This document shows positions 3-52,499 of a stretch of 64,000 bases of DNA, piece by piece. Source of the stretch: Romanomermis culicivorax. Lineage: Eukaryota > Nematoda > Enoplea > Mermithida > Mermithidae. Position 1 is the stretch's first letter; each line of letters starts with the position of its first letter. The stretch is taken from positions 868,001-932,000 of the forward strand of contig CAWUHX010000064.1 in NCBI GenBank assembly GCA_963922205.1, in the 5' to 3' direction. The notes below the pieces were generated by a model. It saw only the letters and a program-made list of their open reading frames with translations. It had not been told where the DNA came from and did no database searches. The position numbers were made by a program, and so were the translations under genes.

Positions 3-3000
3 ACATCGTGTAGTGCCCAATTTCAGATGTGTGGAACTTCATTGAGCGGTCACTCAGTCAGCATACCAAAACTTGTATCATGCATGCCCCCTTCCACAGT
101 AGACAAACCCGTACAAACATTCGGAAAAATCTATATCCCCTCCACTAAGCCCCACATTACAGATGCATATAAATGCAGCGTTCGCAAACGCAAAATTTGT
201 ACTAATACAGGATTTTTTGGATCAAAAGGTATTGTCTTCGACCAAACCGAAATGCAAAATCTAACCCCACATGTTTGTAAGGCAATCGTTATAGACAAAG
301 AACACAACGGTCAAAAATTATACGAAACCCAACCAGGATTTTGGTCAACAAATAACTCCCTAAGCGTAGAATACACATGGTGTTGTACAGACCATTGTAC
401 CTCAGTCACTAACGTCATCATAGAAATAGGACAAATAGCATCTTGGAATGGAAAATCTATGACAGGTACATTAGGCGACCTAGGGTCATGCAAACCGACA
501 TCAGGTCATTGTGTCACAGCCGATGGATCCATTATCTGGAATGAAACAGCATTTGAAAACTTATGCCCCTTCGAATACAAAAACACACATCCCATCAAAC
601 TCACACAAACCCACATGATAATAGAAGAACTACAAGGTGCATTCTCAGTCAAAAATACACTCTTTTCAAACCCCAATTGCCCAGAAATCCAAGACAGCAT
701 TCTAACCGAACAAGGCATTATCGTCCAATTAGACAAAAGCACACCACATCGTAACGCATTTTTAACCCCAAAAACCAACGAAACTCGTACTACACTATAC
801 GATTTTGATGATTTTGAACCCATCAATGCAAAACTAAACTATCTAGCAGACAAAATACAGGAATTCGAAATTCAAAATTTCAAAAATGTATGGAATGAAC
901 TATGCAGACAGGCACAGCGTCACCTTGATCTCGTATGGCAAATTTTACGTCTTGATGCAACCCTTGGAGCGCGTGCATTCCTACAGCGAACGGACATAAT
1001 AGCAGAATTCACAGGAGAAGCCCTCACAGTCTGGCCCTGTAAGCAAGTAAATGCATCTAAAATCTTTTACAACCACAAAATCAACCAAACATGTTACAAA
1101 CTTTTGCCCATTCTCGTAGGAACTGAACTCATGTTTTCAAATCCAGGAGGCAACGATTTGACCCCTTTTTCACAAACAGTTGACTGCCATCACATGCATG
1201 TAGCCCTTTACAAACAGAATAATACATGGGTCAGTGAAACAGGATCCCCGCATGTCACAAATTTACCTTTAGAAATCGTCTGGAACCAAAATTTCTCCCT
1301 TTTTCATTTTAATACACCCGCCATTTTTCATGATCAACTTGCAACCATTTCAACCAACTTACTCTTTTTGAAACAATACATTTACAAAACTCACACACTC
1401 GAAAACATTGTCAAAAAACTCGTCAATTACACCGCCCAAATGTCTCTCAATTCCGATACAGTTTACAACATGATCTCAGGCACTGGTCAAGCACTCGGAA
1501 ATACACTCTCTGGCGCCGGTCAAGGCATAGAACATGTAATAACCGGTACCACCCAAAGTCTCACAGATGGATTAAACAATTTACTCAAAGGACCCCTGCA
1601 AATCATTATCAATCTCGCCGTTATTACTGTAGTTATTGCAGGCGTCTTTTATTCGTTTCTCGTCCTTCGAAAATATTTCCCCTCTCCAAAGCATCATGCC
1701 ACAAACGAACATGCATACGAAATACCATCAAACAACAGACAATTACATGAGACCATACCCCCATCATTCGGCCATGCTCTCTTAGAATTAGCTAATCGTC
1801 GTGGGGCACAAACACAGCAGAAATACGTCCTTGTCGATATCAATACCCCCCGAACCCCTGCAATCGAACTCATTAATCAAATTCAGCAATCTCCATCAAA
1901 CAAGCCACCCCAGAATGTACCTGAGAAACATACCCCTCATATTCCAATCACACTTAACGGCAAATTAATGACAAAAGGCATGATTGACACTGGTGCAGTT
2001 TACTCACTCATTGATTCCCGAATCGTTCAAATCCTACAGTTAGACATGAAACCCCCGCTAGTCCAAGCAAAAGCAGCAAATAATCTCCCGATTCACTTTG
2101 TAGGAACCACTTTTGTCACAGTGACAGCCCAAACAATCCAGGAAACAATCATGGTCCATGTCCAAAAAGATTGCACAGCAGACATCCTTCTAGGCAAAAA
2201 CTTTCTCAGTCGATTTTCGGAATACACTATCAACAATCAAAAATCACAGGTCAAATTTGGCAATGTTATACTACCCTGTGATGGCCTAGAATATAGCCCT
2301 CTTTCAACTCGTGGTGGAACTTATTTGGATGAGAAATTAGAATTACCACCCCGTACAGTAACCGACTTTTCTGTCCCCTTGCCCAAATCGTACTTACAGG
2401 TCAAACAGCTTGAGTTCACCCCGAAACCCAAACAGAATCCCAAAGTCCATTTCGCAGCTTGTATATCGGAAAATCAAAACAGTCGCATACGCATATCGGT
2501 CCTAAACACGCAAGAAACAGCTCAAACTCTTTACCCTGGAACATGCATTGGTACAGTCTCCTGTTACATCCCGAAACAAAATACTCCCGCTAACCTAACC
2601 CCTTCCACGCAAAACCAGCCCAACCGTTTTGATACATTCACATGGTTAAAGGAAAATGTTAATTTAACCTCCAGTGACCTCACAGAAACCGAAAAAATGC
2701 AACTCCTACGCGCCCTATCGAAGTACCCTACATTATATGCTAAATCCAAAATGGATGTAGGTAGAACCACCCTCGTTTCACATACAATTGACACCAATGG
2801 CTCCCAACCCGTACGTAGACAACTTTATCGGACGTCCCCAAAAGAAAAGCAAATCATACAAGCAGAAGTTGAGCAACTCGCAGCAGCAGGTGTCATAAGC
2901 CAAAGCAATTCTCCATGGTGTACCAACACAGTTTTAGTCCCCAAAAAAGATGGAGGCCATCGTTTATGCATTGATTTTAGAGGCCTCAACAAAGTCACCA

Positions 3001-5429
3001 AAAAAGATACCTACCCCTTACCCCGTATAGACGAAATTCTAGACACCCTCCGTGGAATGAAATATTTCACCTCCCTTGACCAATCCAATGCATACTATTC
3101 CATTCCCATAGCACAAGCAGACAGAGAAAAAACGGCCTTTAATTGCTCAGCTGGCCAGTATCAATTCAATTACCTCCCCTTTGGACTCACCAATGCCCCA
3201 GCCACATTCCAAAGGTTAATGGATGTTATTCTTTCGGATCTGCAATGGAACACATGCCTTGTGTATCTCGACGATGTTTTGGTATTCGCAGACTCCCATG
3301 CCCAAATGCTGGAACGTTTAGACACTATTCTTGCCCGATTCTCACAAGCAGGCCTTAAGCTAAACATACAAAAATGCAAATTCTGCCAGCCCCAAGTCCA
3401 ATACTTAGGCCACGTCATTTCTCAGCAAGGCATTTCACCAGATCCCCATAAGGTACAGGCCATTTATGACATACCCACACCTAAAAGCTCAAAAGAAGTT
3501 AAGTCGTTCCTTGGCCTACCCTCATACTACCGCAGATTCATCCCAAATTGCTCTCAAGTTTCTAGCCCACTCACATCGCTACTCAAAAAGAACTCAGAAT
3601 TTTCCTGGGGCCCTGAACAGCAAAATGCATTCACTAAGCTAAAAGAATTACTCATCCATGCCCCAATACTGCAACATCCCGATTTCACCAAACCGTTTAT
3701 TCTGCAAACTGACGCCTCAAAACTCGGAATTGGCGCCATTCTCAGTCAACTCGATAGTAAAGGTCAGGATCGCCCCATTGCTTTTGGGAGCCGAACACTA
3801 AAACCCGCAGAACGCAACTACCCGATAACTGAGTTGGAAACCCTTGCAGTAGTTGAATTTGTCAAGTATTTCCGCCCTTATCTTTTCCAGCAACATGTTA
3901 TTGTCCACACTGACCACACAGCAGTTCAGGCAGTCTTACAGAAGGAGAACCCGTCCCCTCGCATTGCCCCTTGGGGATTAGCCCTCTCTGGTATTCAACT
4001 CGACATTCGACCTAAGAAAGGCACTGCTAACCGCAACGCAGATGCAGTTTCTCGATTCCCCTCGCAAACAGCAAAGCAATCCTTTGATATTGAGCAATTA
4101 GAAACCCGCCCCGAAATATCAACGATCAATTCAGTTTTGGAAACCGAAGCAACTGAACAAGAAGAGCAACAGAAAAACTTTGCCAAACTCCAACGCACTG
4201 ACCCCACTGTCAAGAGTACTTTAGCAAAAATCGCCCAAAAACACCCCCTTACCCTTATCAAATTTGCAGTGCATCAAAACATTCTCTTCCGTATAGTCGA
4301 CAAACAGGCAAAACTATACATTCCCAAGTCACAAGTCCAGCATCTCATCGCCTCACATCATGACAGCAAATTCACAGGTCATTTTGCGGCCCGGAAAACT
4401 TTACACTTGCTCAAACAGAAATATTTTTGGCCCCAAATGAGCCGGGATATCAAACATTACTGCAAAACTTGTCACCCATGCCAGACACAGAAAGCTCTTA
4501 GGCACAAAGTACATGCAAACTTGGTACCAATTCAGCCAACTGGCCCATTTGATCGAGTTGGTGTTGATTGCATGGGACCATTACCCCTCACTGAAGACGG
4601 CAACCGATTCATTGTCGTTTTCATCGATTATTTCACAAAGTATGTAGAGGCATTCCCGACCCCTGACATCACCGCAGCCACCATTGCCAAGCTATTCGTA
4701 ACCAAAATTGTTTGTCGTCATGGGTCCCCAAAAATCATCCATTGTGATCGTGGCACCGATTTCGTATCCGATCTTTTCTCACGGATCACCAGTTTATGCA
4801 ATACTCAGAAAATTCACACTACCCCATATCATCCCATTGCCAATGGAGAAGTTGAGCGTTGTAACCAAACCTTAGCCACCCGTATCCGCATGTACATCAA
4901 TTCAAATCACACTGATTGGGATACTTATCTCCCGTATGCCGTTTTTTCGATCAACATCCATAAAAATGATAGCACATCATATCCCCCATTTGAATTACTC
5001 CACGGTAGGCAAGCTAATCTGCCGTCAGATGCAGCTTTAAATTTTTTCCCCACGTCCTACATGGTTGATTTAGATGATTACGCCCTTCGTGTAAAATCGC
5101 ATTTTACAGAAGCACTCTCAACCGTGCAGAAAAGTTTGCAAAAAGCCCAAGCCCACTATACCCGTCAGTATAACAAGCATGCTCAGAACATACATTACAA
5201 GGCAGGTGATCTTATTCTTTATAAAAATCATTCGTGTAAACAAGGGCTGACTCCCAAATTCCTCCCTCGCCAAAACGGGCCCTATACAGTTACAAATTTC
5301 ATGTACCCCAATGTTACACTTAAACACCCCCATAAGAATATTACATTTACGGTGCATGTAAACGAGACAACCCCTTTCTACCCTCGGAAAGCAACTATCG
5401 AATCTACCTCCATCCCTCCTCAACCTTGA
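3..5429 (+). CDS. Envelope-like glycoprotein fused to protease-RT-RNase H-integrase (partial 5')
   Basis: One open frame of about 1,800 codons, open at the left window edge; residues are numbered from the ATG at 27. Residues 1 to about 520 look like a secreted ectodomain: many cysteines and at least seven N-x-S/T sequons, then a Gly-rich segment and one transmembrane helix at about 524-550. Next come an aspartic protease (DTGA at 654, ILLG near 722), reverse transcriptase (YLDD at 1080-1083), RNase H (TDAS near 1228), an integrase HHCC zinc-binding region (about 1443-1490), a DDE core (D1514, D1574, E1610, spacing DD35E) and a C-terminal GPY-type module. Protease-RT-RNase H-integrase order and the GPY module are typical of Ty3/Gypsy. 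The glycoprotein in front of the protease is not. Copy B shows the frame continuing upstream through a signal peptide toward Gag. Which viral glycoprotein class it belongs to cannot be decided by eye. Confidence 0.92.
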   Translation, partial: TSCSAQFQMCGTSLSGHSVSIPKLVSCMPPSTVDKPVQTFGKIYIPSTKPHITDAYKCSVRKRKICTNTGFFGSKGIVFDQTEMQNLTPHVCKAIVIDKEHNGQKLYETQPGFWSTNNSLSVEYTWCCTDHCTSVTNVIIEIGQIASWNGKSMTGTLGDLGSCKPTSGHCVTADGSIIWNETAFENLCPFEYKNTHPIKLTQTHMIIEELQGAFSVKNTLFSNPNCPEIQDSILTEQGIIVQLDKSTPHRNAFLTPKTNETRTTLYDFDDFEPINAKLNYLADKIQEFEIQNFKNVWNELCRQAQRHLDLVWQILRLDATLGARAFLQRTDIIAEFTGEALTVWPCKQVNASKIFYNHKINQTCYKLLPILVGTELMFSNPGGNDLTPFSQTVDCHHMHVALYKQNNTWVSETGSPHVTNLPLEIVWNQNFSLFHFNTPAIFHDQLATISTNLLFLKQYIYKTHTLENIVKKLVNYTAQMSLNSDTVYNMISGTGQALGNTLSGAGQGIEHVITGTTQSLTDGLNNLLKGPLQIIINLAVITVVIAGVFYSFLVLRKYFPSPKHHATNEHAYEIPSNNRQLHETIPPSFGHALLELANRRGAQTQQKYVLVDINTPRTPAIELINQIQQSPSNKPPQNVPEKHTPHIPITLNGKLMTKGMIDTGAVYSLIDSRIVQILQLDMKPPLVQAKAANNLPIHFVGTTFVTVTAQTIQETIMVHVQKDCTADILLGKNFLSRFSEYTINNQKSQVKFGNVILPCDGLEYSPLSTRGGTYLDEKLELPPRTVTDFSVPLPKSYLQVKQLEFTPKPKQNPKVHFAACISENQNSRIRISVLNTQETAQTLYPGTCIGTVSCYIPKQNTPANLTPSTQNQPNRFDTFTWLKENVNLTSSDLTETEKMQLLRALSKYPTLYAKSKMDVGRTTLVSHTIDTNGSQPVRRQLYRTSPKEKQIIQAEVEQLAAAGVISQSNSPWCTNTVLVPKKDGGHRLCIDFRGLNKVTKKDTYPLPRIDEILDTLRGMKYFTSLDQSNAYYSIPIAQADREKTAFNCSAGQYQFNYLPFGLTNAPATFQRLMDVILSDLQWNTCLVYLDDVLVFADSHAQMLERLDTILARFSQAGLKLNIQKCKFCQPQVQYLGHVISQQGISPDPHKVQAIYDIPTPKSSKEVKSFLGLPSYYRRFIPNCSQVSSPLTSLLKKNSEFSWGPEQQNAFTKLKELLIHAPILQHPDFTKPFILQTDASKLGIGAILSQLDSKGQDRPIAFGSRTLKPAERNYPITELETLAVVEFVKYFRPYLFQQHVIVHTDHTAVQAVLQKENPSPRIAPWGLALSGIQLDIRPKKGTANRNADAVSRFPSQTAKQSFDIEQLETRPEISTINSVLETEATEQEEQQKNFAKLQRTDPTVKSTLAKIAQKHPLTLIKFAVHQNILFRIVDKQAKLYIPKSQVQHLIASHHDSKFTGHFAARKTLHLLKQKYFWPQMSRDIKHYCKTCHPCQTQKALRHKVHANLVPIQPTGPFDRVGVDCMGPLPLTEDGNRFIVVFIDYFTKYVEAFPTPDITAATIAKLFVTKIVCRHGSPKIIHCDRGTDFVSDLFSRITSLCNTQKIHTTPYHPIANGEVERCNQTLATRIRMYINSNHTDWDTYLPYAVFSINIHKNDSTSYPPFELLHGRQANLPSDAALNFFPTSYMVDLDDYALRVKSHFTEALSTVQKSLQKAQAHYTRQYNKHAQNIHYKAGDLILYKNHSCKQGLTPKFLPRQNGPYTVTNFMYPNVTLKHPHKNITFTVHVNETTPFYPRKATIESTSIPPQP

Positions 5430-5456: not shown

Positions 5457-5469
5457 GGAAGGAGGGAAA
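5457..5469 (+). other. Polypurine tract of element A
   Basis: GGAAGGAGGGAAA lies directly before the TGTAACG that opens the 3' LTR. This is the expected plus-strand priming site, and the identical tract precedes the 3' LTR of copy B. Confidence 0.85.
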
Positions 5470-6375
5470 TGTAACGTACCTGCTAAAGCAGTACTGTAAA
5501 CATGTAGCATACTGTATGTAATAGACATTTATTAGATATTATTTTATTTTCACATTTTATCGTCTCAAGGATGTCTGGGATTCACACCCAAACATTCCTA
5601 CAAAATTACGTGAAGTACTTTATTTTGATCCGTTCACACCCCGGTAGCCCAATTAAGACGCCCTAATTAATTTGCACAAACGGCAGCTGTTCCCCTAGAA
5701 CCTACACGAAACTACACATTCCACAGCTACCGTAATCCCCCGTAAAAATCGTAAACAACACCTGCACACAGTAAAATACGTAGAAGCCCCGCCGTACAGT
5801 AGTCTCAAGTGTAACAGTAGCGGCGGCCCCACAAAACATGTGTATACAGAGAAACCGATACAGGAAGCATGCACAGAAGCACAGAGGTGTGGCCAAGCCC
5901 ACCGTAGAAAGCAAGCGAAGCACAGAAAGCATACAGTACCAGAAAAGCATTAGAGAGGCGTAACTAAGAAAGCATAAAAAGCGTAGCCGGAAACGACGAT
6001 TGGCGGAAGAAGATGGACAGAAGCTCGACCTCCCGCAGCGTCCAGGGAGTGGCCAAAATCGCCGTATAAAAGAAGAAGCAAAGCGTGATTTTGATCATTA
6101 TTCTGGTTCTTATTCTTGTGGTTGTTTCCGTTTTGACTTCCGCGCTCGCCCCGTCTTTTTATATACATTTGCAAGCGGCCGACTATTCGAAAGCACTTAA
6201 ACCGAGGCCCCCGTCCGTATTTTAATTCGAAGCGCGTTATTTGTCGACGTTCAAGCGACCGTCGATCCCCGTTGTTTTATTGTAATCGTACGCCCGCGCC
6301 CCCGTCCCGTTATTTACCCCGCCGTATCGACCGATTGGTCCAAGTAAAGTACCTCACAGAAATCTGGTCGTTACA
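5470..6375 (+). repeat. 3' LTR of element A
   Basis: About 906 bp bounded by TGTAACG and CGTTACA, a 7 bp terminal inverted repeat with the usual TG..CA ends. It is homologous along its length to the LTRs at 39069, 43571 and 51603. It contains a TATA-like box at 6065-6072. Confidence 0.93.
6065..6072 (+). promoter_or_regulatory. LTR TATA box (element A)
   Basis: TATAAAAG follows GCCG and precedes a purine-rich stretch. The same box is kept in both LTRs of copy B (44166, 52198); the solo LTR has a weakened TATTTAAAG form. It probably marks the U3/R promoter. Confidence 0.6.
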
Positions 6376-8111: not shown

Positions 8112-9212
8112 TCCCAAGTGAGCAAATTTCCAATTGGATGATTCCCAAATAAGCGATCGATAATGCACTTATATTTTCCTCCTTTACCTTATATTTTTCT
8201 CTGTATGTGTTTCTTTTTTCTTTCGTTTTCTGTGTGTGTTGCTCATGTTTTCGTTTATGTATGCTTATACGTTTTCATCTTTTGTCTCTGCTTTCTTTCG
8301 ATTTTTTTCGTGTCATCTGTTTTTTTCTTTTTTGCTCATAAAACATAGCTGCATTTTTCAATAAGCATAATCTCCTCTGTAATTCTATGATTTTTGCATC
8401 ATTCTTATTTATTTTTCATTCTATGGCCTGTTTTTTATGAAATGCTTCCAAATAGAAGAGTGACACAAATCAGTACTGTCGTCAAAATAGCTTACATAGG
8501 GCTCTTGCTATAAAATTTTTCACTCTAAAAATTGATAAAGGTTTGATAAATATGCCCAAAAATCTCCAGTCCTACATGATATATTGTTTAGCAGAAAATC
8601 GTGTAAATCTGAAATAATACTTGCTTTCCACTTTCATTATTTAGAAGCTTTTCACAAAAAACAGACTATAGTTTTTTTGATTCTATTTCTTTTTCTATTC
8701 CCCTGCTCCTCTCTTCTTTTGGTTCGTTTTCATATCATTTTTTCTTTCTTTCTTGCTGCTTTCTCTATCTTGCTTTTTCTTTCTTATCACTTTTCTTCAT
8801 GTGTTCTTTGTTTGCCTAATTCTTTTCTACCTACATTTCCTTATTCTAAATGCCTTCTTTTTTGTTGAAGTTTTCTTTCTCTTGATTTTGTTTCTTCAAT
8901 CATTCTTTTGTTTACATCTTTTATAAATATTTTCACACCTGCAAGAATAAACCGAAATATATAAGAATTATATGGAAGAATATGATTATTTAGAACGACA
9001 ACTTGTAATGTATAATGAGCAAGAAAAGAAAAATCAAAGAAAGCTGAAACAAAAGATGAAAACGTAAAAGCATTCATAAACGAAAACATAACACACACAA
9101 AACGAAAGAAAAAAGAAATACATACAAAGAAAAATATAAGATGAAGAAGGAAAATACGAATTTTGAGTTGAGTAATATTGAGAATTGGCTCACTTGAGGA
9201 TCAACAAGTGAG
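8112..9212. mobile_element. Foldback-like element, family F1, copy 2 (carries a nested MITE)
   Basis: Terminal unit arrays lie at 8112-8168 and 9168-9212. The arms 8163-8340 and about 8965-9150 are clear inverted copies: the left has TTTCTTTTTTCTTTCGTTTTC, the right the complementary purine string with matching landmarks such as AAAATGAAAACG-type blocks. The middle holds the MITE at 8421-8671, a later nested insertion. It may move non-autonomously; no coding capacity is seen. Confidence 0.75.
8421..8671. mobile_element. MITE family M1, copy a
   Basis: 251 bp with imperfect terminal inverted repeats: CTATGGCCTGTTTTTTATGA at the left and the complement of CTATAGTCTGTTTTTTG at the right, each followed inside by an AAATGCTTC/GAAGC-type subterminal block. 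The interior (ACACAAATCAGTACTGTC, CAGTCCTACATGATATATTG) is shared with copies at 26447 and 29561. It sits inside foldback element F1 copy 2. Confidence 0.88.
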
Positions 9213-25629: not shown

Positions 25630-26320
25630 CTGGCTATTCTTTTATACTTCTACTTTTGTTTTGTTTTGTTTTATTTTCCTTTGTTTTCTATCTTTTGATT
25701 TTTTAACTCGCTCATTTTCCACTCTGTTAATTTTCTCCAATCTTGCAAAACTTTGTTTCATTTTTCGTTCCTTGTTTACACTTTCTGCTTACGTTTCAGT
25801 TTTCAGTTTTCTTTTCCTTTTTTTACATTTCAGTTTCTGTTTCGTTCTTTTTTCTTTGTATAGTTTCTTTCCCTTCTCTGTCTTCATTCCTCTTTTCCTT
25901 TTTTCAAAAACTAGCACGTATGAGGCTTGGTCGTTTGCGTTACTGTAATGTTTCTCTCATGTGCTGCTAATTTCCTAGAAATTTTAAATTTGTTCCAAAT
26001 CCTTATGTTACATTACGAGCTGTAGCAGAGACACATGATATTTTATAATCACTGAAAGGCGACTCCTACCGATCAATGATCTTGCATGGAAATTTGGTAA
26101 TCGCTTCCTACTTAAATAAATGATCAGATCAGCATAAATGCTGAAAAGCAGCATGAACAGGCACGAAAGTGAGACGGGCGCTTAGTCAAAGCATCAGAGG
26201 AAAGTCATAGCTAAACAATGGGCGCCAAAGTAAGACGGGCGCCAAGTTAAGACAACAGTCTTATTTTGGCGTCTATAACATTGGGCGCCGAAGTGAGACG
26301 GGCGGCATAGTAAGACTATA
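25630..26320. mobile_element. Foldback-like half element, family F2, copy 1
   Basis: A pyrimidine-rich arm (25640-25915) runs into a shared middle and ends in an array of 17 bp units at 26165-26317, of the type GGGCGCCAAAGTAAGAC. The whole block is an inverted copy of 33975-34680: landmarks in the same order include ACTAGCACGT, CTCGCTCATTT, TAATGTAAC-type and GCTGAAAAGCAG strings. Frames within it reflect only strand bias. Confidence 0.7.
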
Positions 26321-26446
26321 CCACAAAAACACACATTCGAGATCAGCTGTTCATAAAATATTAAAACTTTTCCTATGAACGGATAAGAACAGTTGTGCGC
26401 AGTTTATTTCATTTTAACATAACAAATAAATTTCCTCAATAGTGAT

Positions 26447-26697
26447 CTAAAGTCTGTTTTTTATAAGATGCTTCCAAATTGAAAAGTGACACAAATCAGT
26501 ACTGTCATCAAAATCGTTTACATAGAACTCTTACCATAAAATTTTTCACTCGAAAAATTGTTTAAGGTAAGGTCAGTACGCTCACAAATTTCCAGTCCTA
26601 TATGATATATTGTTTACCAGAAAATCATGAAAATCTGAAATACTACTTGCTTTCCACTTTCATTATTTAGAGGCATTTTAAGGAAAACAGACTATAG
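26447..26697. mobile_element. MITE family M1, copy b
   Basis: 251 bp, the same length as copy a and in the same orientation. Left end CTAAAGTCTGTTTTTTATAAG, right end GGAAAACAGACTATAG; the interior ACACAAATCAGTACTGTCATC and TCCAGTCCTATATGATATATT match copy a. Confidence 0.88.
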
Positions 26698-29560
26698 TCG
26701 CCTGAAGGAGACGTGCTATTCGGTGAACACATTCAGTGGCAGAATTGACTTAAATATGCAAAAAAATTGCAGCGACTTCAAACAAACAATTGCTAACTTG
26801 AAACACAATCGATTGCAATCAAAGTTAAGATTTTTGAGGACTATATCTTATCTGAAATCTCTCTTCAACAGTTTGCGAGAACTTCTCCAAGTAATAATGA
26901 AAAGGGGCAATTTTCGATTGGAATGCGACGCTACCTTTCGGGTGTGGAAAAACAACGGAATTCTATTACTATAGGACGCCATTTTTGACCTTATTTTCAA
27001 ATTTCTCTGATAAATAAACAAGTTATACGTACATACTTCTGTAGTAGAAGAGTAAAAGACCGTCATTGGCATCAAGTTTGTACACTATATAGTGTATGTT
27101 GTGAAATACTATCCATTTTCATATTTACCAAAAATGGGCGCCATTTTATTATTTATCTCGTTTATTTATCTTTTTTTTATTTATTACTTTTAAAAAACTT
27201 TTTTTTTGTTATCGCGCGGTTTTATGTTACCCTGTAAAAAAGTTTGCATAATTGAAAAGCGTCGATTTTTCAAGGTCGGCCACTTTTCGACCCGAAAAAA
27301 ATTCTTTTTACAGTAATCCGCTACAGTAACTGTCCTCTCAAAACAGTAGTCCCCTTTATTTGACAAAAGTTTAGTGGTGATTAGGTGATATAATCAATTT
27401 TAGACTCACTCAAAAAAGCCAGACACGCCGAGAAAGCGCGAAAAAAGTTGAACTTTTTTGGTAGTAGTCGAAAACAACTTTTTTCGGTATTTTGGTCGTG
27501 ATACGTGGCGCCCGAAAATCAGGTTTATAGTGGCGCGGAAAATCTATGAATTTTAGGCGGGCCGATGAGTAAACATTGTGAAAATTTTTCAAACTCCACT
27601 GAACAGTAAAAACATACTACTACAACACACCATTTACCAAATTTCATTGCAAATACTGATTAGGCGGGATGATAAAGAAAGAGATGTTTAAAAGAAAGAG
27701 GGAGACACACACACACTACAGTTTTCAATAGTCTTTTTCGACAAATTCATCAAGAAATTAATCAACGGTGAAAGATGAACGATTAATCAAATAAAAATAG
27801 CCCACTCAACTTTGAAGTACTGTACTGTACTGTATAATGATGCATCATGAGAAATCTCAATTCAGTTGAAGTGGAACGGCGTAAAAGGGCGCGAACTAGT
27901 ACGCATAAAAAACAATGCAAAAAGGTCACGTGACACAGAGTTCAGTGTTACAATATAGAGTGGCCAAATCAGAGATGCTCGGCTCAAATTTTCTAGAGGA
28001 AAAAACTCAGGAAATGCCAAGTGAAGATGTGAGCTAAAATTCTGATATTCATCACTTTCTCCTGAGATCTCGGTATCTCATAATGTTTGTCCTAAGAAGA
28101 TACATTGGCAAATAAAGTAAACTGAAAAAACTATCAGGTTATGAATAAATGAACAGCGAGCAAATTACAACAGAAGCTTAAAAGTCCGAGTAAGAATCGC
28201 CAGTGGCTAAACAACACTTCATTTAGTGCCTGAACGAATACAAGTGGCTGAAGTGGTACCATGTTCATTGCCTTTAAGCAAGGCCGAGAGCCATATTTGC
28301 AGGGGAAATTTGCATAAATATGGTAAACCATGAATAACTAGTGAAATGGAGATTGAAAGATTCAAAAAATGCATTCGATAGATAGATTTGAATGTACTGA
28401 AATATTTTCCGTGATAAAAGGAGTCATTTCTACAACTTTTCTTCCAATAGGATGTCCAGAAATTTTATAATATTTCAAACTCATATAAGTGTGATTTGCA
28501 AAATCCGGTGAGTTCTCAAGATCAGGTACAAGTGAAATTTCCGTCTTTCGAAGAATTTATGCTAATTGGAGGGTTTAGAAATTTACCCACTCAAACAATA
28601 ATTTTTTTGATTGGAGTAATTTCAAAACGTGAGCAATCGGTCGATTGATTTTCTTGAAATCTATCCAGATCATTTTTAAACACCAAACGTAAAGGCTCTT
28701 AAGCCTAGTCCAAATTTCATTTTTGAGCCCAGTACTTCACTTTGGAAAACTTTGTCCGCATTGGAATAAAAGCTATGGAGCAAAATTTTCGGTCGGCGGA
28801 TCCAGATTCGGAGCAGAAAATAATTTTCGGCAATGATATCAGTATACGGATGATTCTGAATGGGGTTCAGGCTAAGGCGACCCGAAAATTGTAAATTTCC
28901 AAAGAATGTTGTACTTGACAGATTTCGCCCCTGTCGGGTCAGATTTCACCCAGACATCTCAAAAAATTTCAATTAACATTTTTTTGTGCATTCAGTATAA
29001 ACGTCGTAATCAACAACGTGGAATAAAGTTGAGAATGGTGTGGTTGACTTAATGTCGAAATTTGTCAAATTCAGAAGCAAAAATTTTAGCAATGTTCAAA
29101 ATTACTGGAAAAAGCCTAATTTGAAATCATTGAGTTTCGTACTTGGATGGTTCGTTAGCAGGCCTGTAGGTAGGGATTGGTTGGGGGGGGGGGGTGGTTG
29201 GGGCATGTGTCAGAAAAAGCGTTCTTTTTTTATCTTCAAGAAAAAGTCCAGTCAGAAATACCAATTTTACAGTGAATTGAGTGAAAAAAATGTGTCCCCC
29301 TGAAAAAAATCTTAGTTACAAGCCCGTTCATTAGCATAATTTCGAGAATCACGTGAAACTAATCAATTTGTTAATTTTCTGTACTCAATATCGAGATTAC
29401 TTGTTGCAGTTAGGTAATTTCACTGATTTCGAATCGAGGAAACTTGAGTTAAAACCACTCATTATCATGAACTTTTATTCTCGTTTTCCGCACTTAGTTC
29501 ACAAAAGCAGATACGGTTCAAAAATTGTTAGGATGAGCCTATAAAAATCTATTTCGTCGT
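26698..29560. other. AT-rich intergenic stretch
   Basis: No gene recognised. Short CTACAGTAA-type motifs near 27310-27360 and a CTGTACTGTACTGTA run near 27820 are common in worm intergenic DNA. A G-homopolymer patch at 29160-29205 with a C-rich tail near 29295 resembles the G/C-rich repeat family but is too short to assign. Confidence 0.45.
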
Positions 29561-33974: not shown

Positions 33975-34680
33975 CAGGTACAGTCTTACTTTGGTGCCCG
34001 TTTCAATTTGGCGTCCCGTCTTAGTCTGCTTTTCAGCATTCATGTTAATGATTTATTTAAATAAGAAGCGATTATTAAATTTACAAGATGATGAAGTAGC
34101 TTTGCAGTCGCCTGAAATATCATGTGTGTCTGCTATAGCTCGTAATGTAACATAAAGATTCGCATCAGATTGAAAATGATTCAGAAATTAACAGACCATG
34201 AGAGAAATAGTACATTAACACAAACGACCAGGCCCTGAACGTGCTAGTTATTGAAAAAAGGAGGGGAGGAAGGAAGACAGAGAAGTAAAAGAAATTATAT
34301 ACAAAAAAGTACAAAACGGAAACTGAAACGCGAAAAATAGACGAAAACTGAAAATTGAAATGTAAGGAGAATGTAGAAACAAGGAACGGAATCATGAAAG
34401 AAATATTTTGCGAAATTAGTGACAAATGAGCGAGTAGAAGAAAATGAAAAGATAAGAAAAGAACAAAAACAAAATTAGAAAAAGAAAAGAATAGAGAACG
34501 GGAAAAGAAAAAAGAATAAGGGGAACGGTGAGTAAGATGAAACAGAAAAGAAATATATGGAAACAAAAACAGAGAAACAAATAGAAATAACACAATGTGA
34601 AAATAAAACGGAAAAGTAGTGAAAATAAAGAAAACAAAACCGAAAAGCAGTGAAAATAAAACGGAAAAGCACTCAAAATA
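33975..34680. mobile_element. Foldback-like half element, family F2, copy 2 (inverted)
   Basis: Starts with GTCTTACTTTGG and CGTCCCGTCTTAGTC units (33982-34028), the complement of the 17 bp units at 26165-26317, and runs into a purine-rich arm (34240-34680). It is the inverted copy of 25630-26320, about 7.6 kb away. Whether the two are arms of one large element or separate insertions is unresolved. Confidence 0.7.
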
Positions 34681-39068: not shown

Positions 39069-39966
39069 TGTAACGTACCTGCTAAAGCAGTACTGTAAAT
39101 ATGTAGCATACTGTATGTGATAGTCAATTATTAAATATTAATTCTTTTTTCGTAATTTATCGTCTCAAGGGTGTCTGGGATTCACACCCAAACATTCCTC
39201 TAAAATCATGTGAAGTACTTTATTTTGATCCGTTCCCACCTCGGTAGCCCAATTAAGATGCCCCAATTAATTTGCACAAGCGACAGCTGGTCTCCTAGAA
39301 CCTACACTAAACCACACATTCCACGGCTATGGTAATCCCCCGTAAAAATCGTAAACAACACCTGCACACAGTAAAATAAGTAAAAGCCTCGCCAGACAGT
39401 AGTCTCAAGTGCAATGGTAGCGACGGCTCCACAAAACATGCGTACACAGAGAAACAGATACAGGAAGCATGAACAGAAGCACAGAGGTGTGGCTAAGCCC
39501 ACCGTAGGAAGCAAGCAAGACACGAAAAACATGCCATACTAGAAAAGCATTAAAGCGCGTGACTAAATAAGCATGAATAGTAAAGCGGGAAGCGACGATT
39601 GGGGGAAGAAGATGGACAGAAGCACGACCTCCAGCAACGCCCAGAGAGTGGCCAAAAACGTCGTATTTAAAGAGAAGCAAAGCGTGATTTTGTTATTATT
39701 GTTGTAATTCTCAGTTTTCGATCCCCCCGCCCCGTTTAATTGCAAGCATTTTTATATTGCAAGCGAGCACCCTTTTTTCAGAAGCAGTTAAGCCGTTGTT
39801 GTAACTCGCCGCGTTTCCCGTTTGTTGTTGTCGACGTCTCAAAGCAGCCGTCGATTATTATTATCCGTATCGCCCCGTATTATCCGTCCCCCATTCCGTC
39901 CTTGTACGCCATTTTGACCATCCGTAATTGGATAAAGTAAAGTGCTTCACAAATCTGGTTGTTACA
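39069..39966 (+). repeat. Solo LTR of the A/B retrotransposon family
   Basis: 898 bp from TGTAACG to GTTACA, without internal sequence, flanked by the 4 bp target duplication GTAT (39065-39068 and 39967-39970). The corresponding site in the second direct-repeat copy (near 53725) is empty. It is a product of LTR-LTR recombination and is more diverged from the LTRs of A and B than those are from each other. Confidence 0.94.
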
Positions 39967-42516: not shown

Positions 42517-43570
42517 TTACTGTGAGGCATGTACTCTTTTATGTCTACACTTCTACGTTGGACATTCTGTGGAGATGGTGCAAGATGTGAAGACGGTTTC
42601 GATAATCCAGAGCCAAAAGAACAACAACCATGTATGAGCACTTCGCTGCTATAAAATAGAGAGCAACAATGAAAAGAAGTAACCAGGCCATTCATGATTA
42701 TGAATTTCAGATTACGTTTCTGGCAGTTTCGTTGATGCATTGTTATTCCTATAGAAACTTGTTCAGCAAACAAAGAGCCTGAAGCAACACGTCAATGCGC
42801 AATAAATACTTCATACAAAAGGTTGCACATTTTTCATAAAGTAAAAAAGCTTTATTTCATGCATGAGCAATTATTTCTTGACTGCAAATTTTGATCACCG
42901 AATCTAGAATAAGTCTGAAGCTGCTTTTAACTATGATCTTCACTGCTACAGCCATAACAACACTGATCTCAGGATAAAGCTGCAAAAGTGTGACTGTAAA
43001 TTTTCATCACCGAATATGTTAAATCCTCAACAATTACACCATTAACCAAATTTTGTCAAAATACTTCAAGTTATTTATTGCATTAAATTTTGATTTGATT
43101 GCTACAGATCATTTTTTGAGTAGTGTAGTGCATCTAAAAATTATCCAATCAACCATAATATCGCAATCACTATGATGATAAAACCTACCTGTTGATTACT
43201 ATTCGGCGACTATTTTTGAGTGATATCGTGCTATAGTTTCTATTTAAATGTTATTTTTCCAGAAAGAGTTGAAAGCAGGCATTGCAAGTACTGCATACGT
43301 TTGATGCGATTTCTTCAATTACTGTAGATGGTAATTGTTTTGAGAGTGAAGTAGTTTGGTGACAATGCACACTTTAAGACCATCAATTTTAATCAAAATA
43401 TTAGCATCAATCCTTCCAGTTCAAATGGGAGATGACAGAGTCTGGTAAGAAAGAAAATAATCAAGATTCATTACAGAAAACCTTCCTTTGTCTCGTTCAG
43501 AGGGTTAGTGAAAATTCTTATAATTCAAGTTATTAAATATGTAGGTAGTACTTTGGGGCCCTTAAGGGCG

Positions 43571-44467
43571 TGTAACGTACCTGCTAAAGCAGTACTGTAA
43601 ATATGTAGCATACTGTATGTGATAGACATTTATTAGATATTATTTTATTCTCACATTTTATCGTCTCAAGGGTGTCTGGGATTCACACCCAAACATTCCT
43701 ATAAAATTATGTGAAGTACTTTATTTTGATCCGTTTGCACCCCGGTAGCCCAATTAAGATGCCCCAATTAATTTGCACAAACGGCAGCTGTTCCCCTAGA
43801 ACCTACACTAAACTACACATTCCACAGCTACCGTAATCCCCCATAAAAATCGTAAACAACACCTGCACACAGTAAAATATGTAGAAGCCCCGCCAGACAG
43901 TAGTCTCAAGTGTAACGGTAGCGGGGGCCTCACAAAACATGTGTATACAGAGAAACCGATACAGGAAGCATGCACAGAAGCACAGAGGTGTGGCCAAACC
44001 CACCGTAGAAAGCAAGCAAAGCACAGAAAGCATACAGTACCAGGAAAGCATTAGAAAGGCGTAACTTAGGAAGCATAAAAAGCGTAGCAGGAAACGAGGA
44101 TTGGCGGAAGAAGATGGACAGAAGCTTGACCTCCAGCGACGCCCAGGGAGTGGCCAAAATCGCCGTATAAAAGAAGAAGCAAAGCGTGATTTGATCATTC
44201 TTATTTTTGTGGTTTTACAATTTTTGACTTCCGTGCTCGCCCCATCCTTTTTATACATTTGCAAGGGGCCGATTATCCGAAAGCAACTTAAACCGAGGCC
44301 CCCATTCGTGTTATAAATCGAAACGCGTTTTGTATTGTCGACATTCAAGCGACCGTCGATCGTTAGTGTATATTCGCCCCGTATTTGTACCTCCATGCCC
44401 CTTTTGTCCCTGCCGTATCGACCGATTGGTTAGAAGTAAAGTACCTCACACAAATCTGGTCGTTACA
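43571..44467 (+). repeat. 5' LTR of element B
   Basis: TGTAACG..CGTTACA, with TATAAAAG at 44166-44173 and an internal Tsp-like CGACCGATTGGTTAGAAG block near the end shared by all copies. It supplies promoter and polyadenylation functions for the element by family analogy. Confidence 0.95.
44166..44173 (+). promoter_or_regulatory. LTR TATA box (element B)
   Basis: TATAAAAG about 300 bp before the end of the 5' LTR, in the same place as in element A and the 3' LTR. The likely transcription start is some 25-30 bases downstream. Confidence 0.6.
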
Positions 44468-44472
44468 TATTT

Positions 44473-44490
44473 TGGTGACCATACCATACC
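44473..44490 (+). other. Candidate primer binding site (element B)
   Basis: TGGTGACCATACC begins five bases after the 5' LTR end. TGG would pair with a tRNA 3' CCA. The primer tRNA was not identified. Confidence 0.5.
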
Positions 44491-44772
44491 GTTAACCAGT
44501 GGAACTCCCAGCCCCAATTAGGTGTACTCTTATCCGGGCATTTAGAAGCATTAGATAATACAGTAGTAATCATTCCCAACAGTAAGACAGTATTCGTAGA
44601 AAGCAAACTGGAAATCCCCTTCAACGAAACATTAAGCGATTTAAACTTTAATTTAAACTCATTTAAACACGCTGTATTCATTTCACGCTGTATTCATTTA
44701 AACTCATTTGAACGAATACAGCGTGAAGCAAAACTTGAAGCATTTAAGCAGAAATCACAGCGTAAACCTAGA

Positions 44773-45885
44773 ATGACCCACCAAACGCAAGATCATTTAG
44801 GAGAAATCGTTAGAGAACAGATAAACGATTTATTTTCAGAACATTTTCGTACTCTACGCACACAATTGAATCAGAATACAGCAAACCCTACCCTAATAGA
44901 CGATCTAAGAACAGCAAACATTCGTAATAACATGGCAAATAATTTCTATGCGAAACCTACAGTATTCACGGGCGGCATGACCCAACATTTTGGTGAATGG
45001 AACAAAAGATTAGAACAATTCATGGCACTCCAAGGCATGAAAGATACAGACGTACAGTTAAAGTTGGCATGTTTAGAGATTCATTTAGGAGGAGCCGCAT
45101 TAGCAAAGTTCAAAAGTTTAGCAAATTCCGAAAACCCTCCCCACACATACGAGCAGTATAAAGTTGCATTACAGGCATTTTTCCCAAACAATCGAGATAA
45201 TGAGCTACATCAACAATTTTTACGCGAAAGAAAACAAAAGCGTTCAGAAACAGTAACTGAATTCTTATTTGATCTAGAACATCTCGCAACCCTCGCCTAC
45301 CCTAACTTCAACACAGACGCACGAGAAATGATCATAAAACCCCTCTTTGTAGAAGGTATACAAAACGAAATCAGAGAAGCAATTAAGTATAGACGGTTTG
45401 CAATTCTAAAAGAAATGTCAGACGAAGCAGCTTACATTGAACAGCAAATCCTTAGAAATGAGCTAAAATCTAGCACCCTTCCATTTATACCCCCAAAACC
45501 CGAACCCATCTTTTCCCTAACCAAAAATACAGATCAACAGGACCTCTTGCGTCAGTTACAACAACAAGTAAAAGATTTACAGTTGCAGATCAAACAAAAA
45601 CCTCAACCCCCACAACAGAGTAGCTACAGCAATTTCAGTAACAATACTTTCAGCAGGAATAATGCTTACAGGAACAATACCACCCCTAGGCAACCCACAT
45701 GCTTCAAGTGTGGACTAATCGGACACGTAGTTCGTAATTGTAAATCAGTAGGCACCCGAAAATCATGTGAAATCTGTTTTCGTAATAATCACAGTATGCG
45801 TGATTGTAAAAGTCGATGCATCCACTGCTCCCAAGCAGGACATAGACCTGATAACTGCCTTTCGAAACCCTACTCAAATTTTTAA
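44773..45885 (+). CDS. gag: Gag polyprotein of element B
   Basis: 370 codons from the first in-frame ATG. Residues about 60-220 form a retrotransposon Gag/capsid-type helical region (FGEWNKRLEQF, YPNFNTDAREM). A Gln-rich linker follows, then three CX2CX4HX4C zinc knuckles at 310-323, 332-345 and 349-362. Gag packages the element RNA. The frame ends in TAA at 45883-45885, but the same frame continues directly with a fourth perfect knuckle (CSICKQRGHTSRYC) and then the glycoprotein-Pol region. Upstream the frame is also open, without an ATG, for 98 codons from 44479 just behind the primer site; that stretch reads like protein. The true N-terminus may lie there, with a lost or non-AUG start. Confidence 0.92.
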   Translation: MTHQTQDHLGEIVREQINDLFSEHFRTLRTQLNQNTANPTLIDDLRTANIRNNMANNFYAKPTVFTGGMTQHFGEWNKRLEQFMALQGMKDTDVQLKLACLEIHLGGAALAKFKSLANSENPPHTYEQYKVALQAFFPNNRDNELHQQFLRERKQKRSETVTEFLFDLEHLATLAYPNFNTDAREMIIKPLFVEGIQNEIREAIKYRRFAILKEMSDEAAYIEQQILRNELKSSTLPFIPPKPEPIFSLTKNTDQQDLLRQLQQQVKDLQLQIKQKPQPPQQSSYSNFSNNTFSRNNAYRNNTTPRQPTCFKCGLIGHVVRNCKSVGTRKSCEICFRNNHSMRDCKSRCIHCSQAGHRPDNCLSKPYSNF

Positions 45886-48800
45886 TGTTCTATATGCAAG
45901 CAGAGAGGTCATACAAGCAGGTACTGTCCAAATCAGCAGAGTCGTAATATTCAAAATTGCATTGAGTACAGGCAACCCCAACCCCTCATGGACATTGATG
46001 ACCCCGCATTTTACTCAAAATTACCCGCCATAACTAACAGCCCTCAGACAACTTTAGGAACAATTATGCCCACTACCCACCGCCGTAGTGACGAATACGT
46101 TCTCGACCTGGACGTACCCGATTGGTGTGCCATGTCACCACCCCCCACGCCCGAAGCCGCAAAAATCGAAAAATCGCCGCCCACCATCCCAGTAGGCTAC
46201 AAGATCCCCCGCAAGCAAGACACCACGCCGCCCAACGCCTCCGAAACCCCATCGAAAGCAGGCCGCAACTTGTTATCCCTTCTCCATGGCTTGACCCCCG
46301 AACCCTACCAATTTCACCCCCGCCAAACACTTCTACCGACCCCCACAAGTAAGCAAGTCCAAACCCCATCCCATAACTCAACTTCTAAAATTTTACAGAC
46401 CCTTCAGATTTCAAACCGGCCACCCCCCCAGTTCAAAATCGCAAAACGACAACACTCGCCACGCCAAATCGAGCAGAGCGAAAAAACACAGTGCTCTGCC
46501 ACCTCCACTAAAACATTCTATTGGCTGATGTTTTGTATTTTTCTTTGTATAATAATCCCCACATCGTGTAGTGCCCAATTTCAGATGTGTGGAACTTCAT
46601 TGAGCGGTCACTCAGTCAGCATACCAAAACTTGTATCCTGCATGCCCCCTTCCACAGTAGACAAACCCGTACAGACATTCGGAAAAATCTATATCCCCTC
46701 CACTAAGCCTCACATTACAGATGCATACAAATGCAGTGTTCGCAAATGCAAAATTTGTGCTAATACAGGATTTTTTGGATCAAAAGGTATTGTCTTCGAC
46801 CAAACCGAAATGCAAAATCTAACCCCACATGTTTGTAAGGCAATTGTTATAGACATTATTGTACAATTAGACAAAAGCACCCCACATCGTAATGCATTTC
46901 TAACCCCTAAACCAAGGATACTCATACTACACTCTACGATTTTGATGATTTTGAACCCATTAACCCGAAACTAAATTATCTAGCAGACAAAATCCAGGAA
47001 TTCGAAATTCAAAATTTCAAAAACGTATGGAATGAATTATGCAGACAGGCACAGCGTCACCTTGATCTCGTATGGCAAATTTTGCGCCTTGATGCAACCC
47101 TTGGAGCACGTGCATTTCTACAGCGAACCAACATCATAGCAGAATTCACAGGAGAAGCCCTCACAGTTTGGCCCTGCAAGCAGGTAAATGCATCTAAAGT
47201 CTTCTACAACCATAAAATCAACCAAACATGCTACAAACTTTTACCCATTCTCGTAGGAACCAAACTCATGTTTTCAAATCCAGGAGGCAACAATTTGACC
47301 CCTTTTTTGCAAACTGTTGATTGCCATCACATGCATGTCGCTCTCTACAAACAGAATAATACATAGGTCAGTGAAACAGGATCCCCACATGTCACAAATT
47401 TACCTTTAGAAATCGTCTGGAACCAAAATTTCTCCCTTTTCCATTTTAACACACCCGCAATTTTTCATGATCAACTTGCAACTATTTCAACCAACTTACT
47501 CTTTTTGAAACAATGCATTTACAAAACTCACACACTCGAAAACATTGTCAAAAAACTCGTCAATTACACTGCCCAAATGTCTCTCAATTCTGATACAGTT
47601 TACAACATGATCTCAGGCACTGGCCAAGCACTCGGGAATACACTCTCTGGCACCGGTCAAGGCATACAACATGTAATAACAGGTACCACCCAAAGTCTCA
47701 CGGATGGATTAAACAATTTACTCAAAGGACCCCTGCAAATCATTATCAATCTCGCCGTTATTACTGTAGTTATTGCAGGCGTCTTCTATTCGTTTCTCGT
47801 TCTTCGAAAATATTTCCCCTCTCCAAAGCATCATGCCACAAACGAACATGCATACGAAATACCATCAAACAACAGACATTTACATGAGACCATCCCCCCA
47901 TCATTCGGCCATGCTCCCTTAGAATTAGCTAATCGTCGTGGGGCACAAACACAGCAGAAATACGTCCTTGTCGATATTGATACCCCCCGAACTCCTGCAA
48001 TCGAACTCATTAATCAAATTCACCAATCTGCATCAAATAAGCCACCCCAAAATGTACCTGAGAAACATACTCCTCATATTCCAATCACACTTAACGGCAA
48101 ATTAATCACAAAAGGCATGATTGACACTGGTGCAGTTTACTCACTCATTGATTCCCGAATCGCTCAAATCCTACAGTTAGACATGTAACCCCCGCTAGTC
48201 CAAGCAAAAGCCGCAAATAATCTTCCGATTCACTTTGTAGGGACCACTTTTGTCACAGTGACAGCCCAAACAATCCAGGAAACAATCATGGTCCATGTCC
48301 AAAAAGATTGCACAGCAGACATCCTTCTAGGCAAAAACTTTCTCAGTCGATTTTCGGAATACACTATCAACAATCAAAAATCACAGGTCAAATTTGGCAA
48401 TGTTATACTACCTTGTGATGGCCTAGAATATAGCCCTCTTTCAACTCGTGGTGGAACTTATTTGGATGAGAAATTAGAATTACCACCCCGTACAGTAACC
48501 GAATTTACTGTCCCCTTGCCCAAATCGTACTTACAGGTCAAACAGCTTGAATTCACCCCAAAACCCAAACAGAATCCCAAAGTCCATTTCGCAGCTTGTA
48601 TATCTGAAAATCAAAACAGTCGCATATGCATATCCGTCCTAAACACACAAGAAACAGCTCAAATTCTTTACCCTGGAACAGGCATTGGCACAGTCTCTTG
48701 TTACATCCCAAAACAAAATGCTCCCGCTAATCTAACCCCTTCAACGCAAAACCAGCCCAACCGGTTTGACACATTCACATGGTTAAAAGAAAATGTCAAT

Positions 48801-51602: not shown

Positions 51603-52499
51603 TGTAACGTACCTGCTGAAGCAGTACTGTAAATATGTAGCATACTGTATGTGATAGACATTTATTAGATATTATTTTATTTTCACATTTTATCGTCTCA
51701 AGGGTGTCTGGGATTCACACCCAAACATTCCTATAAAATTATGTGAAGTACTTTATTTTGATCGGTTTGCACCCCGGTAGCCCAATTAAGATGCCCCAAT
51801 TAATTTGCACAAACGGCAGCTGTTCCCCTAGAACCTACACTAAACTACACATTCCACAGCTACCGTAATCCCCCGTAAAAATCGTAAACAACACCTGCAC
51901 ACAGTAAAATACGTAGAAGCCCCACCAGACCGTAGTCTCAAGTGTAACGGTAGCGGGGGCCTCACAAAACATGTGTATACAGAGAAACCGATACAGGAAG
52001 CATGCACAGAAGCACAGAGGTGTGGCCAAACCCACCGTAGAAAGCAAGCAAAGCACAGAAAGCATACAGTACCAGGAAAGCATTAGAAAGGCGTAACTTA
52101 GGAAGCATAAAAAGCATAGCAGGAAACGACGATTGGCGGAAGAAGATGGACAGAAGCTTGACCTCCCACGACGCCCAGGGAGTGGCCAAAATCGCCGTAT
52201 AAAAGAAGAAGCAAAGCGTGATTTGATCATTCTTATTTTTGTGGTTTTACATTTTTTGACTTCCGTGCTCGCCCCGTCCTTTTTATACATTTGCAAGCGG
52301 CCGATTATCCGAAAGCAACTTAAACCGAGACCCCTGTTCGTGTTATAAATGGAAAGGCGTTTTGTATTGTCGACGTTCAAGCGACCGTCAATCGTTCATG
52401 TATATTCGCCCTGTATTTGTACCGCTGTGCCCCTTTTGTCCCCGCCGTATCGACCGATTGGTTAGAAGTAAAGTACCTCACACAAATCTGGTCGTTACA
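51603..52499 (+). repeat. 3' LTR of element B
   Basis: 897 bp, the same length as the 5' LTR, with the same terminal inverted repeat and a TATA box at 52198-52205. Followed by GGCG, the right target duplication. Confidence 0.95.

Follow-up and report, generated by a model that had tools for sequence, protein, structure and literature searches.

Positions 3–5429 of the window, the 64 000-nucleotide stretch of the Romanomermis culicivorax genome analysed here (C64:868001–932000; contig CAWUHX010000064.1), form the 3′ part of a Ty3/gypsy (Metaviridae) long terminal repeat (LTR) element in which an envelope glycoprotein (Env) lies between Gag and the protease, in one reading frame with both. The host is a mermithid nematode that parasitizes mosquito larvae. 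It seems fairly likely that this retrovirus-like element makes a single polyprotein, ordered Gag, signal peptide, class III glycoprotein, transmembrane (TM) segment, protease, reverse transcriptase (RT), RNase H and integrase, and processes it along the lines proposed below. The window holds one copy cut by its left edge (copy A) and a second, decayed one (copy B). The initial annotation, made on the window alone, placed the glycoprotein between Gag and protease–Pol in one frame, and this arrangement recurs in many genomic copies and in related elements. Its figure of about 1,800 uninterrupted codons for copy A holds within the window; the full frame with Gag, in copies other than A and B, has about 2486 codons. 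The signal-like segment and single TM segment that it had described on either side of env are present, with the signal of copy A lying just left of the window (read at genome locus L001 as ...STKTFYWPMFCIFLCIIIPTSCSA/QFQ). The features of copy A are as follows.

3–5429, + strand: open frame, 1808 codons in the window, covering env, TM, protease, RT, RNase H and integrase and extending left past the window edge into the signal peptide and Gag
15–1592, + strand: env ectodomain (residues 5–530), matching PF24664; class III fusion glycoprotein by profile and predicted fold, the model resembling herpesvirus glycoprotein B (gB)
210–227, + strand: candidate fusion loop 1, GFFGSK (residues 70–75), at the turn between long model strands 51–69 and 75–86; GFFGSKG is conserved in alignments
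333–356, + strand: candidate fusion loop 2 (putative), PGFWSTNN (residues 111–118); WSTNN is conserved in alignments
1593–1670, + strand: TM segment (residues 531–556) with a basic stretch after it; hydropathy peak at residue 534, model helix 531–558
1671–1943, + strand: loosely constrained linker between TM and protease
1944–2213, + strand: retroviral-type aspartic protease (PF13975, E = 6.4e-08), with D-T-G at residue 662
2937–3992, + strand: RT and RNase H, from Pfam domains and a home-made RT profile (residues 979–1330)
4320–4835, + strand: integrase, H2C2 and catalytic core (PF17921, PF00665)
5457–5469, + strand: polypurine tract adjoining the 3′ LTR, from inspection of the sequence
5470–6375, + strand: 3′ LTR (TGTAAC...GTTACA), from repeat comparison and sequence

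The element has the characters of Metaviridae: an RT closest to that of Ty3, a protease–RT–RNase H–integrase order with a GPY/F motif, and LTRs with TG..CA ends (TGTAAC..GTTACA) and a target-site duplication within the 4–6 bp range (GGCG, flanking copy B). The solved structures nearest to the copy A RT, which carries YLDD at residue 1088, are those of Ty3 RT (4ol8, 297 bits; 7q5b, 295 bits), followed by 8r0s (192 bits) and 7o0h (151 bits). The GPY motif (residue 1759, position 5277) is located downstream of the integrase core; GPY/F is a Metaviridae feature, as PMC12440569 also states. That paper describes Troyka elements as having CG..CG LTR ends and neither env nor GPY/F, and an identity with Troyka was set aside, as the window element has TG..CA ends, env and GPY. 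Pfam domains on both sides of env scored above their family cut-offs when the copy A frame was cut into pieces. No env was found 3′ of pol in copy A, where the pol stop and the 3′ LTR are separated by 40 nt, polypurine tract included.

A profile search of the ectodomain, as proposed in the initial annotation, gave a match to PF24664 (Monjiviricetes_fusion) with an E value of 4.8e-19 and 68.2 bits against a cut-off of 27. This profile and the fold of the predicted model both identify the ectodomain as a class III fusogen; the assignment rests on these two because the env sequence gave no matches to solved structures at E values up to 10. The class III fold of the predicted model is shared with herpesvirus gB and mononegavirus glycoproteins, which are encoded by stand-alone genes in their own viruses. 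Fusion loop 1 is assigned from the gB topology and is presumably the equivalent loop. The cysteines and core positions of Env are kept across relatives that are about 33–42% identical. A glycoprotein with no role in entry, acting as an intracellular anchor that recruits Gag–Pol to membranes, where it would assemble or bud into the endoplasmic reticulum (ER), is a rather improbable alternative: the fusion would by itself make Pol a membrane protein, but the conserved candidate fusion loops and disulfide framework would be superfluous for a plain anchor.

The fused frame was followed through 359,112,060 bases of the genome (595 contigs). With the env piece of copy A (546 residues) as query, the best 79 of 4175 initial candidates, ranked by likeness to the query, were scored, and 59 of them were read from Gag to the protease or RT. 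All 79 match query residues 1–546 at 98–100% identity, and none contains a stop there, which excludes a chance open frame. Open frames of 2461–2583 codons are found in 48 of the 79, 17 of them of exactly 2486 codons, as counted by hand; at C122 a frame of 3612 codons spans a run of N. Gag was also used as a query, and in 22 of the 91 loci scored (the best of 3688 candidates) the frame reaches or exceeds 2486 codons (hand count); most others are shorter, as expected of decaying copies and of a query that was itself a decayed copy. Among 58 copies (L013, which has an N run, being set aside) the frame runs uninterrupted between the last zinc knuckle and env in 53, through env up to TM in 57 and from TM to the end of the protease in 52, and the whole 4638 nt from Gag to RT are free of stops and frameshifts in 42. 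The initial annotation had asked for further copies of the same order, which these are, and had named a stop or splice junction between glycoprotein and protease in full-length copies as grounds for abandoning its proposal. A recurrent stop did not appear: in a stop map of 54 anchored copies out of 59, with up to four stops recorded per side, the stops are scattered, and an upstream frameshift pattern is common to only a few (L021, L055 and L056). An assembly chimaera, or the chance insertion of another element's env, has practically no probability left, given dozens of copies on many contigs and the recurrence of this order in independent data sets and, as far as tested, in a second family of the host. 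Some env copies form same-strand pairs 8.4–8.6 kb apart (C122:529142 and 537551; C81:874768 and 883160; C283:177228 and 185822), the spacing expected of head-to-tail elements with a common LTR.

Hydropathy and inspection by eye suggest that the segment preceding env is a signal peptide, with SCSA/QF as a plausible cleavage site. Basic residues occur on both outer sides of this segment and of the TM segment. In 25 of 59 copies the 60 residues upstream of the cleavage site contain no methionine, and four of six database polyproteins inspected also lack one before env. Env is therefore probably not self-initiated, and a polyprotein is the simplest product. No 2A-like NPGP was found between Gag and Env; the sole NPGP in 130 related proteins is in P0116, at 1058, which does not hold env. 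A stop between Gag and Env as a family feature was rejected, as the one in copy B is private.

Retroviruses as a rule express env from spliced RNA. It is conceivable, if rather unlikely, that the frame is fused in DNA while Env is translated mainly from an RNA in which splicing has linked env to the start codon of Gag or to a trans-spliced leader, perhaps with a second splice removing Pol, so that the fused protein is minor or absent. A precedent is the nematode gypsy element Cer1, from a different host species, whose 3′ product CERV is made from a spliced mRNA and whose Gag and Pol have no stop between them (PMC10309623). Against splicing, the Env–protease junction has no stop, so that Env could be released on its own only through a further splice or a cleavage, and the same 25 of 59 copies offer env no start codon of its own.

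The proposed polyprotein order recurs in divergent elements. Against 5.8 billion proteins, env alone gave four matches and env inside a longer protein gave eight, while 120 of 1459 matches were listed for the Pol part; 130 proteins were scored with an env profile and the home-made RT profile, with E values calculated for 130 sequences. The env profile matches 22 of the 130. Env precedes RT in all 14 relatives that hold both (excluding the window's own P0001), namely P0006, P0007, P0008, P0011, P0013, P0020, P0022, P0029, P0033, P0036 and P0100 and, with weak env scores, P0051, P0057 and P0098. Eight of them (P0007, P0008, P0011, P0013, P0022, P0029, P0033 and P0036) have an N-terminal part of Gag length followed by a hydrophobic segment, env, a second hydrophobic segment, RT and integrase; P0100 showed no TM segment at the threshold used. 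Identities in env correlate with those in RT (r = 0.79, 15 pairs) and integrase (0.87, 10 pairs), the pairs not being independent. Pattern scans for further relatives gave 14 stretches in viral contigs and 11 and one in genome contigs, none of which was confirmed.

In the RT tree (118 rows), a nine-row clade of env holders (Shimodaira–Hasegawa approximate likelihood-ratio support 97) includes P0017 and P0021, which lack env. The other env holders are a group of P0008, P0051 and P0057 (support 95) and the pair P0011–P0013, with P0036, P0098 and P0100 elsewhere. A single clade of env holders is neither rejected (approximately unbiased test, p = 0.114 and 0.106) nor demonstrated. With several tree positions and env-less members, the middle env is either old with losses or was reached repeatedly. 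Three observations concern individual relatives. P0098 (2974 residues) is a Gag–Env–Pol-like polyprotein whose precomputed domains include PF24664 and an immunoglobulin domain, PF13927. In P0007, an unusually long stretch separates TM from the main protease and contains a second, weak RVP-type protease match (residues 1360–1454). P0004 and P0051 are env-type retroelement proteins from gammaproteobacterial metagenome bins and probably represent misbinned eukaryotic sequence.

Within the host, the UniProt R. culicivorax protein P0005 has a 92% match in this genome, and further env groups are 55–62% identical to it, with frames of up to 2703 codons; a 24354-codon frame among these loci is not credible as coding. 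In one copy (C34, 2665-codon frame), RT was recognized in 601 bases about 3 kb downstream of env, in the same phase and 55.8% identical to the RT of copy A. As far as tested, this one copy suggests that a second element family in the host shares the Env-before-RT order. A search with P0002 gave loci with frames of 2514 and 3014–3018 codons, together with copies of the window family (C93 and C81).

Ratios of nonsynonymous to synonymous substitution (dN/dS) were computed for 56 copies (L013 set aside for its N run, L035 and L039 as diverged), separately for variants shared by at least three copies and for private variants. In this sample, ranked by env similarity, the ratio for each half of the ectodomain is 0.04 for shared variants, with private values of 0.16 and 0.12. 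The corresponding shared and private values are 0.03 and 0.11 for the protease, 0.06 and 0.19 for protease–RT, 0.08 and 0.21 for the Gag–nucleocapsid region, 0.12 and 0.17 for TM, 0.16 and 0.50 for the linker after TM (residues 561–640), 0.31 and 0.40 for the linker before env and 0.43 and 0.27 for the short signal segment. As even private variants are low in dN/dS, the copies are young or recently selected. The initial annotation had thought purifying selection on the fusion plausible and would have yielded to a neutrally evolving ectodomain; apparent constraint was found instead. There is only a very slim chance that Env is a tolerated passenger, an old viral glycoprotein insertion in the Gag–Pol frame that stays open only since a stop would kill Pol. 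The absence of env from P0017, in the same RT clade, would fit that view; the need for an open frame alone, however, would not preserve amino acids as seen in the ectodomain relative to the linker before it, nor the cysteines and core positions kept among distant relatives.

For the single-polyprotein reading, we infer the following course of translation, targeting, cleavage and assembly. Unspliced RNA would be translated from the Gag start. Emergence of the internal signal peptide would take the ribosome to the ER, where the Env ectodomain would be made in the lumen and glycosylated, and a signal-peptidase cut at about SCSA/QF would release Gag into the cytosol. The TM segment would halt transfer, so that the protease and the remainder of Pol would be synthesized on the cytosolic face of the membrane, attached to Env as its tail, with Env–Pol a type I membrane protein. 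Trimeric Env could then take Pol to the membrane site of Gag assembly, where the protease, concentrated at the membrane, would cut Pol off the Env tail; the product may be infectious. A working analogy, with no homology claimed, is provided by the structural polyproteins of flaviviruses and alphaviruses, in which capsid, internal signal and glycoprotein are in one chain (separated by signal peptidase in flaviviruses), but with no RT or Pol behind the glycoprotein.

Several points weigh against this reading. The output of Gag, Env and Pol would be fixed at 1:1:1, unlike that of retroviruses, which need an excess of Gag; stopping by some ribosomes, or splicing, might adjust it. A methionine does occur 12 residues before the start of mature Env in 34 of the 59 copies. 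No env or hydrophobic segment was detected in P0017 (1903 residues, 51% identity, protease at 672–761), which suggests that env is dispensable, at least there. The env-similarity ranking of the sample lowers env dN, though the protease and Gag ratios are equally low and the ranking is not based on them. Global TM-scores of the env model to gB are low (0.25–0.42 among the 50 matches listed), and the stem region (model residues 421–529) is poorly predicted. In P0001 the ectodomain is only slightly richer in sequons than Pol (1.71 against 0.96 per 100 residues), and in P0009 and P0013 they are commoner in Pol.

Precedents exist for env-bearing gypsy elements, for LTR elements with a class III Env and for single-frame Gag–Pol–Env polyproteins. 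To our knowledge, a gag–pol–env order with separately made Env is treated as near universal in retroviruses. An Env in the middle of one frame was not found in the literature searched, an absence that is weakly supported, since the search may misread 'gag-env-pol' and the main survey of env-bearing gypsy elements (Chary and Hayashi 2025) was outside its coverage. The errantiviruses and their relatives share the Ty3/gypsy Pol; their env open reading frame, however, is 3′ of pol, whereas here env is upstream of the protease in one frame and the 40 nt after Pol hold nothing comparable. Type III fusion glycoproteins are reported for some env-carrying Ty3/gypsy elements in the figure legends of PMC13172572. 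Atlas virus of Ancylostoma ceylanicum, as described in PMC9094657, is alike in its nematode host and single long frame including Env but is a BEL/Pao element, ordered Gag–Pol–Env with a C-terminal, class II phlebovirus-like Env, whereas the window element has a Ty3-type RT. The Anakin elements of mosquitoes, with a chuvirus glycoprotein, likewise captured a mononegavirus-like class III protein but belong to BEL/Pao, whose known env proteins are described as lying downstream of the polyprotein (PMC7642597). The P0002-like BEL/Pao env proteins match PF24664 and are about 34% identical, but follow a DUF5641 stretch (E = 5e-4, slightly short of the Pfam cut-off), which we take to be the C-terminal end of BEL/Pao integrase and hence to place the P0002 env 3′ of Pol.

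We tentatively suggest, as a possibility, an old lineage or recurrent design with Env as the polyprotein's hinge, in which signal peptidase rather than a stop, frameshift or splice separates Gag, and Pol enters particles attached to the fusion protein as its cytoplasmic tail. If true, this would be a different solution for parting Gag from Pol, packaging Pol and coordinating Env with assembly, and would make membrane insertion as a Gag/Pol switch a testable idea. It would also be a second polyprotein route, besides the Gag–Pol–Env of BEL/Pao, for the gain and loss of envelopes by retroelements. With a mosquito-parasitic host, horizontal traffic with arthropods is a natural question.

Copy B, which the initial annotation treated as another example of the fused frame, is not one: it is broken by a nonsense codon in Gag (CAA at that site in 58 of 58 other copies), by a 420 bp env deletion (the size being the offset difference between alignments) and by frame breaks. 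Its residual order, despite these, is Gag–signal–Env–TM–protease–Pol. The two LTRs have TG..CA ends and are 96.9% identical (18 transitions and 10 transversions in 897 positions; Kimura two-parameter distance 0.032). Its features, with a nearby LTR fragment, are as follows.

43571–44467, + strand: 5′ LTR, flanked by GGCG
44479–45885, + strand: Gag frame (PF03732, E = 9.5e-06; zinc knuckles), terminated within the zinc-knuckle array by a TAA private to this copy
46486–46572, + strand: signal-peptide-like segment, ...FYWLMFCIFLCIIIPTSCSA, from hydropathy and inspection by eye
46573–48185, + strand: env, TM and start of the protease, broken by the deletion at about 46851–46855 and by frame breaks
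48189–51571, + strand: Pol frames, broken
51603–52499, + strand: 3′ LTR, followed by GGCG, a 4 bp target-site duplication with 43567–43570
39069–39690, + strand: LTR fragment, 88% identical to the copy B LTR

The window also contains dispersed repeats, apparently unrelated to the element, at 8420–8672, 26446–26698, 25712–26043, 34115–34447 and other positions, which are 75–88% identical and occur in both direct and inverted orientation.
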